64,000 nt of DNA from Candidatus Aquidulcis sp. Its GTDB lineage: Bacteria > Chloroflexota > Anaerolineae > UBA4142. The stretch covers positions 1-64,000 of the forward strand of contig DYJA01000016.1 of assembly GCA_020723345.1 (NCBI GenBank), in the 5' to 3' direction. A model generated the notes under the pieces. That model ran no database searches. It had not been told where the DNA came from and saw nothing but the letters and a program-made list of their open reading frames with translations. The stretch's first letter is position 1, and the number at the start of each line of letters is the position of its first letter. Below are positions 30,059-44,700 of this stretch, piece after piece. A program made the position numbers and the translations under genes.

Positions 30059-30412
30059 ATGGGAATCACGTATATTGATGGTTCGGTCGCGGGACCCAAA
30101 GGGAAAAAAGTTTCGGTGCGTTTTCTTGTGGACAGTGGAGCGAGTTATACCTTGTTGCCACATTCCGATTGGCAAGCGATTGGATTGAAAGCGAAACGAG
30201 AAATGGATTTTACGCTTGCGGACGGCGCGATTGTCAAGCGCAACATCTCTGAATGTCACATCACATTACCGCAAGGCGAGGGACATACTCCTGTGATTCT
30301 CGGCGAACCAGGGGACGAAGCGTTGTTAGGCGCGGTCACACTGGAAATTCTTGGACTCGTGCTCAATCCATTCACGCGCACTTTACAACCAATGCGGATG
30401 ATGCTGGCATGA
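30059..30412 (+). CDS. Retropepsin-like aspartyl protease fold protein
   Basis: A 117-residue protein with the clan-AA motif FLVDSGASYTLLP near residue 24 and a second-half LLGAVTLEILGLVLNPFTRT, as in bacterial retroviral-like aspartyl proteases. A protein this size would act as a homodimer. Start ATG 30059 follows GGGGAGG. Its stop overlaps the next start (ATGA at 30409-30412). The substrate is unknown. Confidence 0.8.
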   Translation: MGITYIDGSVAGPKGKKVSVRFLVDSGASYTLLPHSDWQAIGLKAKREMDFTLADGAIVKRNISECHITLPQGEGHTPVILGEPGDEALLGAVTLEILGLVLNPFTRTLQPMRMMLA

Positions 30413-30825
30413 ACAAAATCAAAATCACTTCTGGCGACATCACCGCGTTCGCGGAACTGAACGACTCACCGACGGCGCAAGCGATCTGGGACGCGCTGCC
30501 GATTCAAGCGCAAGCGAATACCTGGGGCGACGAGATTTACTTTGCGATTCCCGTCAAGCGCGGACAAGAAAAAGACGCGCGCGAGGTCGTGCAGATGGGC
30601 GAACTGGGCTATTGGACGCCTGGTCACGCCTTTTGCATTTTCTTCGGGCGCACGCCCGCGAGTCGCGGCGACGAAATTCGCGCGGCGAGCGCGGTCAACA
30701 TCATCGGCAAAGTGGAAGGCGACGCGCGCGTGTTCAAGAAAGTGAAAGACGGCGCGGAAATAGCGTTGAGCAAGGCAAACGCCCCCGAATTTTATTCGGG
30801 GGCTAACGAGATGGAAACCCGATGA
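30409..30825 (+). CDS. Cyclophilin-like fold protein (TM1367/DUF-type)
   Basis: A 138-residue protein coupled to the aspartyl-protease gene. The sequence KITSGDITAFAELNDSPTAQ, then ALPIQAQANTWGDEIYFAIP, ELGYWTPGHAFCIFFGRTPAS, matches the small cyclophilin-like family of archaeal and bacterial proteins without proven isomerase activity. The last 15 or so residues (APEFYSGANEMETR) come from a repeat element whose hairpin is inverted relative to the copy 146 bp downstream. In that second copy the frame would end at once (GAA TAA), so the original C-terminus was probably ...SKANAPE. Confidence 0.75.
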   Translation: MNKIKITSGDITAFAELNDSPTAQAIWDALPIQAQANTWGDEIYFAIPVKRGQEKDAREVVQMGELGYWTPGHAFCIFFGRTPASRGDEIRAASAVNIIGKVEGDARVFKKVKDGAEIALSKANAPEFYSGANEMETR

Positions 30826-31042
30826 ATTGGGTGGGCGCGCAATCGGCTTGAGCCGATTTCCACCTGATTAGCCGTCGAATTGATTCGACGGCGTTCGGCG
30901 CGGAAATAGCGTTGAGCAAGGCAAACGCCCCCGAATAAAATTCGGGGGCTAACGAGATGGAAACCCGATGAATCGGGTTAGCGCGCAATCGGCTTGAGCC
31001 GATTTCCACCTGATTAGCCGTCGAATTGATTCGACGGCGTTC
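30751..31042. repeat. Tandem duplication of a 146-bp multi-hairpin element
   Basis: Positions 30751-30896 and 30897-31042 are near-identical copies. Each holds a gene tail (GGCGCGGAAATAGCGTTGAG) and four hairpins: CCCCCGAA...TTCGGGGG, AACCCGAT...ATCGGGTT, AATCGGCTTGAGCCGATT and GCCGTCGAATTGATTCGACG. The loop of the first hairpin is GAATTTTATTC in copy one and GAATAAAATTC in copy two, exact reverse complements. The element ends about 16 bp before the DUF4062 protein gene. Confidence 0.9.
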
Positions 31043-31058
31043 GACGCGACAAGGCGCA

Positions 31059-34000
31059 ATGAAAATCTTCGTCAGTTCCACCTACGTTGACCTAATCGAA
31101 TACCGCAGGGCGGCGGAACGCGCGATCAATCTGCTCGATCAGCAATTCAAAGGGATGGAGTATTTCGGCGCGCGTCCCGAAGAACCGAAAGCCGCGTGCC
31201 TCAAAGAAGTCGAGCAGGCGGATGTGTTCGTCGGCATTTACGCGCATCGCTACGGATTCGTTCCCGACGGCGACACGGCATCCATCACCGAGCAGGAATT
31301 CGAGCACGCGAAAAAACTCGGCAGACCGATTTTCTGTTATCGCGTGAGTCCGAAACAACCCTGGTTGCTTGAGTTCGTCGAAAAAGACACGGACAAGCAC
31401 AAGCCGACGGAAAAACTCGCCGCGTTTTTGAAGCGCATCGAAAAAGATTTCGTGCGGAGCAAGTTCACCACGCCCGACGATTTGCTCGCGAAAATTTCGG
31501 CAGACTTGTCGCGCCACCTCGTCGAGCGCGGTCGAGTCGCGCGCATCACGCATCCGCTTCCGCCTGTCCCCTATTTCGTCCACACCTATCCGCTCCAAGC
31601 CCACTTTACGGGGCGCGTAATCGAACGCGCGGAGTTGGCGGATTGGATGGGGCGCGACGCGCGCGCGGCGTTCGTCCTCGAAGCCATCGGTGGGATGGGC
31701 AAGACCGCGCTCGCGTGGGTGTGGACGCAGGAGATTTTTTCGCTCAACATTCCGATTGCGGGCGTTTTTTGGTGGAGTTTCTACGCGGAGCGCGATTTCA
31801 GTCGCTTTCTCGATAAAGCGATTGCGTACGCGAGCGGCGGCACGATGGACGCCCAGCAAATTTCTTCCGACCGCGACCGCGTGGACGCGCTGGCGAATCT
31901 CCTGCGCCAATCGCGATTCCTCTCCGTCCTCGATGGATTCGAGCGCGTGCTGCGCGCGTACGCGCGGATGGACGCGGCGTATCGCGGCGACGCGGTGGAC
32001 GCGGACGCGCGCAACGATTATCGCGCCTGCGCCGATCCGAACATCGGCATATTTTTGCGATGTCTCGCGAGCGGCGGGACGCTGACGAAATTACTCATTA
32101 CCTCTCGCCTATTTCCCCGTGAACTCGACGATTTAGCGGGTGTTCGCCTTATGCCGCTGACGGGGATGAATCCAGACGACGCGGTCGAGTTTTTTCACAA
32201 GCAGGGAATCAACGGAACGCACACCGAAATTGAAACCGCGGGCGCGGCGTACGGCTTTCATCCGCTGACGCTCCGTTTGCTCGCGGGCGCGCTGAAACAA
32301 GACCCGCGCTATCACGCCGATATTCGCAACGCGCCGAGTGTGGAGATGCGCGAGGCGGACAGGGACAAGCGAATGCAAAGGATGTTGGAGTTTGCGTACG
32401 ACTCGTTGCCGCCGCAAGAACGAAAATTGTTGAGCCAACTCTCCGCGTTCCGCAGTCCGATGAAGTACGAGACGATTCGCGATATTTTCGCGGGCGGTAG
32501 GGGCAGTAGGGGCGCAATTGAATTGCGCCCCTACGATGACAACGAAGACGAACTGGCGCACGCGATTTCCAACTTGAGCGAGCGCGGCTTGTATATGCGC
32601 GATGCCGCGACCGACACATTTGATTTGCATCCCGTCATCCGCCGCTATTGCTACGACATGCTTGCCGACAAACCGCAAACGCACGCGATTTTCATTGTCT
32701 ATTTCCAAAAGATTGAGCCGCCGCAAAAAATCCAAACGCTTGCCGACCTGCAGCCGACGATTGAACTCTATCACCACACCGTCCGCGCGGGGCGATATGA
32801 TGAGGCGGCGCAGTTATTCAACTCCCGAATTTGGCGCACACTATACTATCAACTTGGCGCGTACCAGACTCAAATCGAAATTCTGCGTGCGCTTTTTCCT
32901 GATGGCGAGGATAATCTGCCGCGTTTGAAAGATGTAAGTATCCAAGCGAAGGAATTAGCTGAACTTGCTAGTGCTTATTCGCTTGTGGGACAACCGCGTC
33001 GCGCAGTTCCTCTGACTTTGAGACACAACGATTTGAGAGAAAAAGCGGGCGACAAGAAAAATCTCGCCATCGGCTTGGGGAACGTCGCAATACAGCAACT
33101 TGGCATAGGCGAACTGAAAGCGGCGGAGCAGAACCTGCGGCGCAGAATCGAGATTTGCCGCGAAATCAAGGATGAGTTCAACGAAGCCATCGGGCATCAG
33201 GAACTTGGGCGCGTGCTGGCGTATCGCGGTGAGTTTGCGGAGGCGGAGCGGGAGTTGGACGCAGCGTTTGAGATGTTCGGGAAGCAAAACGCCGTGCAAT
33301 CGCAAAGCGTTGTGTCCGCATACCGCGCGCTCCGCGCCTTGCTGATGGGCAATGCGTCCGCCGCGCTTGCGTCCGCTCGCAAGGCGCGCGAGTTCGCGGA
33401 GGAAGACGCGCGGACGGACGCGCCGACCGAACGCGATTTCATTCGCGCGGAGTGGATGATTGGCACGGCGTTGGTAGCGGAGGTATCGTCGGTAGGGGCG
33501 AAGCATTTTTCGACTCCACTACGCTCCGCTCAGGATGCTTCGCCCTTACAACGCGCCTCGCCCTTACAACAGGCAGAACACCATCTCGCCGAAGCATTAT
33601 CGCGTGACCGCGCCATCGGAATGGTGGACATCGAAGCGGCGATTCTGTTGGAGTTTGCGAAATTGCGGTTGGTGCAAGGAACGACCGCAGACGACCGACG
33701 GCAGACCGCCGCTGTCACCCTGAGCGGAGTCGAAGGGTCGGCGGTCGGCGGTCAGCAGTCGGCGGTCGCGCCGTTGATGCAAGAGTCGCTCACGTTCGCG
33801 CGCGAGGCGCTGGAAATCGCGGAGCGGTGCGAGTATCGGTTGGATCAGGCGGAGATTCATAATTTTTTGGCGGAGTGGTGGATGACGACCGCCGACAACC
33901 GACGGCAGACCGCAGATCCTTCGACTTGGCTTCCTTCGACTCCGCTGCGCTCCGCTCAGGATGTGGCGGTCGGCGGTCAGTCGTCGGCGGTCGCACAAGC

Positions 34001-34121
34001 GCGCGAGCATGCGGAACGCGCGAAAGAACGCGCGTGGTGCGATGGTCCGCCGTATCATTACAAGGTCGCGTATGAGCGCGCGGAGAGTTTGTTGAAAGAG
34101 ATTGACAGGGTGACACGGTGA
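31059..34121 (+). CDS. DUF4062-STAND NTPase-TPR protein, probable antiviral or signalling NLR-like protein
   Basis: A 1020-residue protein. Residues 1-95 form a DUF4062 domain (MKIFVSSTYVDLIEYRRAAE ... ADVFVGIYAHRYG). A STAND/NACHT-like ATPase follows with Walker A EAIGGMGKTALAW (about 207-218), a Walker-B-like FLSVLDGFERVL and ITSRLFPRELDDL sensor text; winged-helix and TPR-like helical repeats fill the C-terminal half. Bacterial STAND proteins with such N-terminal effectors are often defence proteins, but regulation is an alternative. Four dispersed palindromic repeats interrupt the frame without breaking it (32506-32534, 33492-33549, 33681-33770, 33885-33995). Start ATG 31059; stop lies in a GGTGACAC repeat. 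Confidence 0.82.
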   Translation: MKIFVSSTYVDLIEYRRAAERAINLLDQQFKGMEYFGARPEEPKAACLKEVEQADVFVGIYAHRYGFVPDGDTASITEQEFEHAKKLGRPIFCYRVSPKQPWLLEFVEKDTDKHKPTEKLAAFLKRIEKDFVRSKFTTPDDLLAKISADLSRHLVERGRVARITHPLPPVPYFVHTYPLQAHFTGRVIERAELADWMGRDARAAFVLEAIGGMGKTALAWVWTQEIFSLNIPIAGVFWWSFYAERDFSRFLDKAIAYASGGTMDAQQISSDRDRVDALANLLRQSRFLSVLDGFERVLRAYARMDAAYRGDAVDADARNDYRACADPNIGIFLRCLASGGTLTKLLITSRLFPRELDDLAGVRLMPLTGMNPDDAVEFFHKQGINGTHTEIETAGAAYGFHPLTLRLLAGALKQDPRYHADIRNAPSVEMREADRDKRMQRMLEFAYDSLPPQERKLLSQLSAFRSPMKYETIRDIFAGGRGSRGAIELRPYDDNEDELAHAISNLSERGLYMRDAATDTFDLHPVIRRYCYDMLADKPQTHAIFIVYFQKIEPPQKIQTLADLQPTIELYHHTVRAGRYDEAAQLFNSRIWRTLYYQLGAYQTQIEILRALFPDGEDNLPRLKDVSIQAKELAELASAYSLVGQPRRAVPLTLRHNDLREKAGDKKNLAIGLGNVAIQQLGIGELKAAEQNLRRRIEICREIKDEFNEAIGHQELGRVLAYRGEFAEAERELDAAFEMFGKQNAVQSQSVVSAYRALRALLMGNASAALASARKAREFAEEDARTDAPTERDFIRAEWMIGTALVAEVSSVGAKHFSTPLRSAQDASPLQRASPLQQAEHHLAEALSRDRAIGMVDIEAAILLEFAKLRLVQGTTADDRRQTAAVTLSGVEGSAVGGQQSAVAPLMQESLTFAREALEIAERCEYRLDQAEIHNFLAEWWMTTADNRRQTADPSTWLPSTPLRSAQDVAVGGQSSAVAQAREHAERAKERAWCDGPPYHYKVAYERAESLLKEIDRVTR

Positions 34122-41751: not shown

Positions 41752-44700
41752 TCATTCGCCGCTTGCGGCGCGTCGCGCCTCAGTCAGTTTTTCGGTTCCA
41801 TTTGGGTCAGCGAGCGCGAGCGCGTCGAGCAGCCACGCCACGCGCGCGACGATGCCCGCGTCGCGGTTAATCGCGCGCGCGGCGCGAAACGCGGCGACGG
41901 CGTCGCTTACGTAGGGGCGCAATTGAATTGCGCCCTTACCTTCACCCGTACCACACAGTGACAACCCGCACAGCGCCACGCCCTTGGCATCCAGCGCGTC
42001 GTACAATTCTGGCGTCTGCGCCAGCAACGCGTCCGCGTGTTGAATCGCGGCGGTGAATGCTTCGCGCGCGTCACCCAAACCCGAAGAGTCTCGGAGACCC
42101 TTCGGGTTTACCGCCGCCTGCCGCAACGCGATGACGCCGAGGAGCGCGAGGACGTTGTGATTGTTTTGCGGCTCGTCGTACTGGCGCGCGGATTCTGCGG
42201 CGGCACGCGCGGCTTGGAGACCTGACAGGTTTTGGAAACCTGTCAGGTCTGTTTGCACGGCGTACAGTTGCGCGAGGGCAAGACCCCAGCGCGCATAATT
42301 CTGAATTGTGGTCAATCCAATTTCATCAGCGATACAAGCCGCTTGCTTGAATGATTCCGTCGCGTCATCGAATTTATTTTGGTCAACAAGCACATCTGCC
42401 TTGTTGTTCAAATCAAAACTTTCGCCGCGTTTGTCGCCAATCTCGCGCGCAATCGCCAGCGCTTGCTCGTAGAACTGGATCGCGCGGCGCGTCTCGCCCA
42501 ATTCGGCGTAACGGTTGCCGAGGTTGCCGAGGCGAATGCCTTCGCCGCGTCTATCGCCAATCTCGCGCGCGATCGCCAGCGCTTGCTCGTAGAACGCAAT
42601 CGCGCGGCGCATCTCGCCTAACTCGCTGTACGCGCTGCCGAGGTTGCCGAGGTGGTTGCCTTCGCCGCGTTTGTCGCCAATCTCGCACGCAATCGCCAGC
42701 GCTTGCTCGTAGAACTGGATCGCGCGGCGCGTCTCGCCCAATTCGGCGTAACGGTTGCCGAGGTTGCCGAGGCCTGCGCCTTCGCCGCGTTTGTCGCCAA
42801 TCTCGCGATCAATCGCCAGCGCTTGCTCGTAGAACTGGATCGCGCGGCGCGTCTCGCCTAACGCGCTGTACGCGTTGCCGAGGTTGCCGAGCCAAACACC
42901 TTCGGCTTGGCGATTTTTTCTTTCGCGCGCGTTTGCAAGTGCTTGCTCGTAACAAGAAATGGCGCGACGTGTATTGCCAATCGCGGCTAATGCTTGCCCC
43001 AAGTTGCCGACACTCTGTCGTTTCAAATCAGCGTCGCTGATTTTCCCCTGCAACTTCTCGTGCATCTCCACCATCAATCGGTAATGTCCCCACAACAGCA
43101 GGTACTCACCATCAATCTCCAACACCACACTCGCCGCCGTGTCGTAATCCTCTGCCGCACAGCGCAAATCAAACTCGTTCAACTGCGGCTCAAGGTCCGC
43201 CAGCGTCTTCCACGTCTCGCGCGGCTTGCGCGTCTGGGCAAAATAATCGGCGGCGCGCGTGAGCAAATCGCGTTGCGTCCAACCCCCATCCCCTGCCCTT
43301 CCCCCGTTCGGAAATTCGCCGAACAGGGGAAGGGAGTTTGCCCCCTCCCCTGTTTTCGATCCTGAGCGGAGCGCAGCGGAGTCGAAGGATTGAAAACGGG
43401 GGAGGGTTGGGGTGGGGGTCACACGCGACCACGCGTACTCGCGATCCGCGGGATGCAAATAGTACTTGCCGCTTTCGCGATGCGCGAATTGCATATTCAC
43501 CAAACGATTCAGCACGGGCGCGCTGTCCACGCTCGCGACGAACGGCTGGAGCAGGTAATCCAATGCCGCAGCACTGACGGGGCGCGCGTACGCCGCCAGC
43601 GACTGCATCACGCGCTGCGCGGTCGGGTCGAGGCGGCTGAACGCTTCACCCACCATCGCTTCGACGACATTCTCTGGTAGGGGCGGTTGTAGAGGCGTTT
43701 TTAAAAACGCCCCTACGCCCAAAATTTCTTCCAACGACGTGTAGCGGTCGGCGGAGAGAATCGCGTACAGCGCTTCGAGCGCGCGCGGAAAGCCGCGCGT
43801 CCGCTCGCAGGCGCGTTGGAGCAGCGCATCGTCCGCATTTTTCAAACCGACTCTGCCGTCCGCGTCCATCTCGCGCAAGAGTCGTTTGGCGTAAGACGCT
43901 TCTAGCCCCGCGTCCACAGCAAGATACTTTTGACACCCTGGCTGGAAGAGTTCGAGTTCGCGCGGCGGGATGCGCGTCGTGAGAATGAGTTTGACCGCGT
44001 GATGCGGCGCGGACAAAATCGCGCGCAGCGCGTCGTCCAATTCCGCGTCCTGGACGCAGCACGTCGTCGCATCCATCACGCTTTCAAAATTGTCGAGCAG
44101 AACGACGACGCGCCCGCGCGGAAATTTTTCGAGGAGCGCGAGCATTTTGTTATGCGTGCTGATTTTCGGATCGCGGTACAGCGCGTCCAGTTTTTGCGCG
44201 ACGTCGGCGGGGAGGAGTTGGCACAAATCGGCGAAGAGGTTCGGCGTGTTGATCGTCCGCGTGCCGATCGCGCTGAGGTAGACGATGCCGTCCACGCTGA
44301 GCGCGCCGAGGTCGTCGGGCAGTTGTCCACTCTCCAACGCTTTGAGGAGGCGGCACACCATCGCCGTTTTGCCGATGCCCGCGCGCCCGTTGATCGTCAA
44401 CATGCGGCACGCGTCGTCGCGCAAAAAATCGGCGACGATTTTGTTTTCGACGTGGCGATCCTGAAAGTAGCGCGGCGCGGTCAGCGGCGGCGGGTTGATG
44501 AACTTCGTACCCCCACCCCGTCCCTCCCCCGTCGCCGACAGGGGAGGGGGTCTGCGTTCGCGTTCGATCCCCGCCTTGATGCTTTCATCCGTGCGGCGCG
44601 CGGCGGCATCAGGGTTTTTCACCACCTCCGTTTGCGCGGCGACTTGCTTACGGAGGAGTTCGATGTCGGCTTGGATGCGCGGGCGGTCGGCGTCGGACGC

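Follow-up and report, generated by a model that had tools for sequence, protein, structure and literature searches.

REPIN/BIME elements are inverted dimers of REP sequences associated with TnpA-REP/RAYT, and the foot of their hairpins carries a 5' GT[AG]G tetranucleotide (PMC3116915, PMC6006769, PMC8266576). When the hairpin loop was reverse-complemented, TnpA-REP of S. maltophilia was severely impaired in cleavage and no longer gave a gel-shift complex (PMC8266576). The TnpA-Y1 transposases of subclass 1.2 (Quentin et al. 2018, PMC6006769) have a Y---Q--HH signature, are present in low copy, generally lack the typical terminal structures of IS200 and occur mostly in Cyanobacteria and Bacteroidetes. 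Inversion of short hairpin loops has been described as well: in yeast genes, template switching reversibly inverts a 3-bp spacer between 10-bp arms (PMC8604942), and loop-only inversions occur in rRNA hairpins, those of bacteria included (PMC8794818).

We analysed a stretch of 64,000 nucleotides from Candidatus Aquidulcis sp. (contig DYJA01000016.1, positions 1 to 64,000; hereafter the window), in which a 146-bp unit is duplicated in tandem on the forward strand at 30750-31041. Copy one (30750-30895) contains the last ~31 bp of a cyclophilin-like gene and one four-hairpin element; copy two (30896-31041) contains the duplicated gene tail and one four-hairpin element with canonical loops. The copies are 96% identical and are distinguished by six bases, namely 30791-30793 (TTT/AAA), 30828 (T/C), 30833 (G/T) and 30834 (G/A). 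As read from the sequence, the exact shared sequence at the duplication junction TTCG/GCGCGGAAAT is 2 bp only. The reading that we favour, with a probability of roughly 0.8, is that of a tandem-duplicated four-hairpin REPIN/BIME-like element in which the loop of the first hairpin (HP1) was inverted once in copy one, lengthening the protein. A first-pass annotation of this DNA had noticed the tandem 146-bp duplication, which was borne out, and had called the first hairpins of the two copies exact reverse complements, as they are (23-mers at 30781-30803 and 30927-30949). It had seen one hairpin pair, which is real, but had overlooked the four-hairpin, dispersed, transposase-associated element. 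Two occurrences of the hairpin pattern were counted in the window, and none in 100 shuffles.

The elements extend from 30781 to 30892 in copy one and from 30927 to 31038 in copy two, the canonical one, and are matched on both strands by the covariance model R1 of the family (see below) with 87-88 and 99-102 bits, respectively. Folding of the copy two element gave z values of -7.3 and -8.1. The hairpins and linkers named here are given on the forward strand. HP1 of copy two, GCCCCCGAATAAAATTCGGGGGC (30927-30949), has the canonical loop AAA at 30937-30939 and contains a TAA stop in the register of the gene (30936-30938). HP1 of copy one, GCCCCCGAATTTTATTCGGGGGC (30781-30803), has the inverted loop TTT at 30791-30793; the polarity rule of the family is broken and the stop is gone. 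HP2 is AACCCGAT-GA-ATCGGGTT in copy two (30962-30979), and its stem is weakened in copy one (30816-30833) by the substitutions at 30828 and 30833, with 30834 lying just outside. HP3 is found at 30841-30858 in copy one (AATCGGCT-TG-AGCCGATT) and at 30987-31004 in copy two, and HP4 at 30871-30892 and 31017-31038, respectively. In copy two, the linker TAACGAGATGGA (30950-30961; family consensus TCTCAACGAGGTGGA) is the 5' strand of a closing stem, P1, and occupies the place where the family carries the GTGG/GTGA foot of HP2. The linker TCCACCTGATTA (31005-31016) is the 3' strand of P1 and represents the inverted foot of HP3.

The cyclophilin-like protein (138 aa) is encoded at 30409-30825 on the forward strand, with its last residues and its stop inside copy one. 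It matches PF04126 (E 7e-43), and the conserved part comprises residues 3-120. With the loop of copy two, TAA would be placed at codon 128, giving 127 residues. In copy one, the three loop bases are inverted and the GAA-TAA stop is thus lost; the frame reads through to the TGA at 30823-30825 and yields 138 residues instead. A loop-dependent stop had been part of the first-pass annotation: the loss of GAA-TAA and the extended frame in copy one hold, and the gain is 11 residues (FYSGANEMETR), not about 12. Since the homologues in relatives end at about 123-128 residues, the TAA of the canonical HP1 gave the normal protein length. The 11-residue tail lies past the conserved domain, whose last residue is 120, and is presumably near neutral, with little effect on the protein anticipated.

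Downstream, on the forward strand, lies a gene for a 1020-aa protein with a DUF4062 domain (31059-34121). In a genome of the same genus (G001), the cyclophilin-like and DUF4062 genes are also neighbours and no element separates them, so the insertion probably took place in the lineage of the window's genome. At this locus of G001 (L035), a GGATGAAGGATGA simple repeat is found downstream of the cyclophilin-like gene in place of the element. On the other side, a small retropepsin-like aspartyl protease gene (PF13650/PF13975; window positions 30059-30412) overlaps the start of the cyclophilin-like gene. Elsewhere in the window, at 42414-43010, we observed tandem 120/240-bp repeats in about four copies, which possibly encode TPRs.

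The element belongs to a family that is dispersed over the genome, since a BLAST search of the window's own genome with the repeat returned 48 places. Eight elements whose HP2 and HP3 both have 2-nt loops served to build the covariance model R1, because a MAFFT alignment of the first 15 elements had misplaced the 2- versus 3-nt loops. In the window's genome, R1 gave 130 matches, corresponding to about 65 elements; owing to the near symmetry of the element, almost all of these are matched on both strands. A further solitary element of the family lies in the window at 926-1040 (69-70 bits, both strands). Moreover, R1 matches were present in 21 of 40 relatives, and G001 and another relative (G004) have about 40-45 elements each, with matches counted on both strands. 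No Rfam family came near its threshold; the best hit, gyrA RNA, lay outside the element and scored 17.5 bits where the cut-off is 45.

The order of parts is constant in the family: HP1 and HP2 flank a linker like TCTCAACGAGGTGGA, a short spacer follows, and HP3 and HP4 flank the inverted linker. HP1-HP2 and HP3-HP4 thus form an inverted pair, with mirrored linkers and loops and with R1 matches on both strands of nearly every element. The foot, scored in 126 half-elements, was AGGTGGA (GTGG) in 48 and AGGTGAA (GTGA) in 46, the remainder being variants. In the aligned R1 matches, 97.3% of cells were paired and 31 of the 39 pairs had changed on both sides, counts that lean towards structure because the alignment was model-fitted and both strands of most elements were included. 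When partners were slid, 27-45% were paired, and the slid and shuffled controls were far from the real values. Other repeats were seen at some of these loci. At L177 (C102:104700-105200), and similarly at L010 and L027, elements are interrupted by a short tract like CCTTCGGCTTTGCTCAGGAT or CTGAGCGTAGCCGAAGG, by its appearance a different dispersed repeat that has entered the hairpins. A second class of palindromic repeat adjoins the elements at L006 (~1380-1470) and L014 (~1640-1745), where further short hairpins (AGCCGACCTCCGTCGGCT, GCGACTTTTAGTCGC) form arrays.

A polarity of the loops runs through the family. The 2-3 nt loop has A as its last base in the two left hairpins (..NA; GA, CA, AA, GGA) and T as its first base in the two right ones (TN..; TC, TG, TT, TCC). 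In the window's genome, this rule was obeyed by 118 left and 112 right hairpins, and clear flips numbered three among about 233 scored hairpins (about 1%): HP1 of copy one, HP1 at C55:4393-4505 (GAATTTATTC) and HP1 at C102:104881-105016 (GATTTCCAATC). In the latter two, the loops are exact reverse complements of allowed loops. The other polarity exceptions that were inspected turned out to be mostly mis-registered pairs; the rest had self-palindromic loops or belonged to elements carrying an insert. Because HP1 of copy one breaks the rule and HP1 of copy two obeys it, copy two is canonical and copy one derived. The rule is shared with other Chloroflexota and cyanobacteria despite quite different stems; for elements at transposase loci of other genomes, 148 cases obeyed the polarity, 5 did not and 15 were self-palindromic. 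The conserved polarity is likely to reflect the reading of the loop by the transposase. At L222 (2657-2909), beside a transposase gene, all loops are GA, so the hairpins stand head to tail and not as the usual inverted dimer.

The rarity of flips bears on the proposal of the first-pass annotation that flipping the palindrome is a switch of C-terminus, taken here as a programmed and reversible inversion that goes back and forth. The two orientations are indeed adjacent, with the stop codon in one of them and not in the other, and spacer inversions by template switching are reversible in principle (PMC8604942). However, the family flips in about 1% of cases and not near half, no flips were found among the scored hairpins of the other tandem arrays of the genome, and the anatomy of the element consists of hairpins and linkers only. 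The homologues, moreover, end near 127 residues and the added tail lies past residue 120, outside the conserved domain. We thus consider such a switch highly improbable; there was no sign of the flipped hairpin as a working switch, and this part of the proposal is unsupported. HP1 of copy one is one rare mutated copy within a genome-wide family.

As for the origin of this copy, the element would have entered the cyclophilin-like gene at its 3' end, where the TAA in the element's own HP1 would have replaced the stop of the gene. The 146-bp unit would subsequently have been duplicated in tandem, using 2 bp of microhomology, and HP1 of copy one would have had its 3-nt loop inverted in a single event, most likely a replication-fork template switch between the two perfect 10-bp arms. 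This inversion would have turned GAA-TAA into GAA-TTT and brought the protein from a length of 127 residues to 138. Template switching, an established mechanism, accounts best for the flip; perfect 10-bp arms around a 3-nt spacer are typical of its substrates, and a replication-template event, already suggested in the first-pass annotation, is well supported as its origin by the polarity break in copy one and by the documented spacer inversions of the same size.

Two other origins of the loop were weighed. Three independent point changes might have produced the TTT/AAA difference, and the tandem copies do differ at three other single positions. Nevertheless, given the divergence of 3/143 outside the loop, we estimate the chance that three adjacent changes match the reverse complement at (0.021/3)^3, or about 3e-7, and the flipped hairpins at C55 and C102, also with exactly reverse-complementary loops, speak against ordinary substitutions too, an origin that we regard as extremely unlikely. 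Alternatively, HP1 of copy one might have been overwritten through ectopic conversion by an HP4-type hairpin of another element, with its TN loop polarity; the family has many HP4 hairpins with a GAATTTATTC-like core. Against this, the HP1 arms and both flanks are identical between the copies, so that a conversion tract would be confined to a few nucleotides, which makes this origin quite unlikely. Inversion by template switching remains the origin that we prefer.

The best Y1_Tnp match in the window's genome (C94:6667-7011) lies 76 bp from an array of two elements. Its three closest orthologues, from other genomes, are 76-80% identical, and an element lies upstream of each, at distances of 31, 46 and 52 bp, so that in all 4/4 genomes with the closest orthologues an element is found 31-76 bp upstream of the gene. 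We extended this comparison to a second collection, which shares some genomes with the first; it supplied 80 homologous loci, most of them belonging to Chloroflexota and cyanobacteria. R1 hits with E below 1e-3 numbered 70 over these loci, of which 58 were within 300 bp of the transposase gene, 11 at 300-600 bp and 1 farther away; 69/70 thus lay at most 600 bp from the gene. A count of short hairpins made independently of the model gave a density of 3.74/kb within 400 bp of Y---Q--HH genes and 0.16/kb at more than 800 bp from them; around the remaining Y1 genes, which are mostly IS200-like, it was 0.53/kb. The motif is YVRNQKEHH in the transposase of the window's genome, and Y---Q--HH was present at 73/80 homologous loci. 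The C94 protein (about 145 aa) had NCBIfam NF033573 (IS200/IS605) as its sole match, with 78 bits; with the RAYT model NF047646 (REP-associated tyrosine transposase), it was not above the curated cut-off. It also matches solved transposases of the IS200/IS605 type, e.g., ISHp608 (E about 1e-9). In G004 and some other element-rich genomes, whose assemblies are incomplete, no close orthologue of the transposase was seen.

The clustering of four-hairpin elements around the gene of a single-strand Y1 transposase makes the element REPIN/BIME-like, and the transposase may well mobilise it. The match to the IS200/IS605 model instead of the RAYT model, the mixed foot sequence and the element-rich genomes without a close orthologue weigh against this reading. 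A role mainly as RNA, with the hairpins acting as terminators or mRNA stabilisers at gene 3' ends and no link to a transposase, would agree with the strong RNA folding (z about -6 to -8) and with the position of the tandem elements between two co-directional genes. However, the elements cluster at the transposase gene and not merely at gene ends, which argues for a DNA role; their near strand symmetry, with model matches on both strands, is as expected of DNA; and no T-run follows HP4 in the sequence. An RNA-only role is thus unlikely and was set aside. Under the REPIN/BIME-like reading, the hairpins would be read as single-stranded DNA, loop included, by the low-copy Y1 HuH transposase. By likeness to TnpA-REP of S. 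maltophilia, which is of another transposase subclass, the flip probably spoiled HP1 as a recognition site on that strand, and the rarity of flips in the family would follow from such a loss.

The pairing of four-hairpin REPIN-like elements with the Y---Q--HH subclass looks new: among open-access main texts that bring together REP sequences, Chloroflexi and transposases, we found no description of it. A broader proposal, for which we see the balance as even, is that the Y---Q--HH (subclass 1.2-like) transposases of Chloroflexota and cyanobacteria represent an undescribed REPIN system, with genome-wide four-hairpin inverted dimers whose stems drift, whose loop polarity is fixed and which flips immobilise. 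If so, loop polarity would be the part read by the protein and natural template-switch flips of the loop would mark dead copies. The visible polarity code separates a constrained part, the direction of the loop, from an unconstrained one, the stem sequence, and a DNA partner is suggested for a transposase subclass that was described without one. Copy one, in turn, offers a natural example, in a bacterial gene, of a stop codon removed by loop inversion.

Compared with known systems, the flip resembles the spacer inversions attributed to template switching (PMC8604942, PMC8794818) in that a short spacer is exactly inverted between perfect arms of >9 bp; unlike in those cases, the repeat that holds it is a dispersed one, and a stop codon was lost through it. 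With IS200/IS605, the system shares a HuH-Y1 transposase with an NF033573 match and the hairpins, but no gene-carrying mobile unit was seen, the genome having one strong copy of the transposase gene and many short non-coding elements. The GTAG repeat families (PMC3733652), among them GTAG-23 of T. roseum, are likewise short tagged palindromes that occur in Chloroflexi too, often as dimers, with loops of 2-3 nt, and the T. roseum elements lie inside further small palindromes; an inverted four-hairpin unit is not part of the main text of that report. The transposase is similar to TnpA-Y1 subclass 1.2 in its Y---Q--HH motif, short protein, low copy number and presence in cyanobacteria, a likeness judged by the Y motif, and differs in occurring in Chloroflexota and in having four-hairpin elements at the gene. 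Finally, REPIN/BIME (PMC3116915, PMC6006769, PMC8266576) and the present elements are alike in that short palindromes are paired in inverted orientation, with a GT-rich foot on the 5' side of the inner hairpin, and in having many dispersed, often tandem copies around a low-copy Y1 transposase gene. In contrast to the two hairpins per unit of REPIN/BIME, there are four here, with a further hairpin standing on the outer side of each foot. Only about 40% of half-elements have GTGG as their foot, and a similar share have GTGA; it is the loop polarity that is conserved while the stems vary freely.
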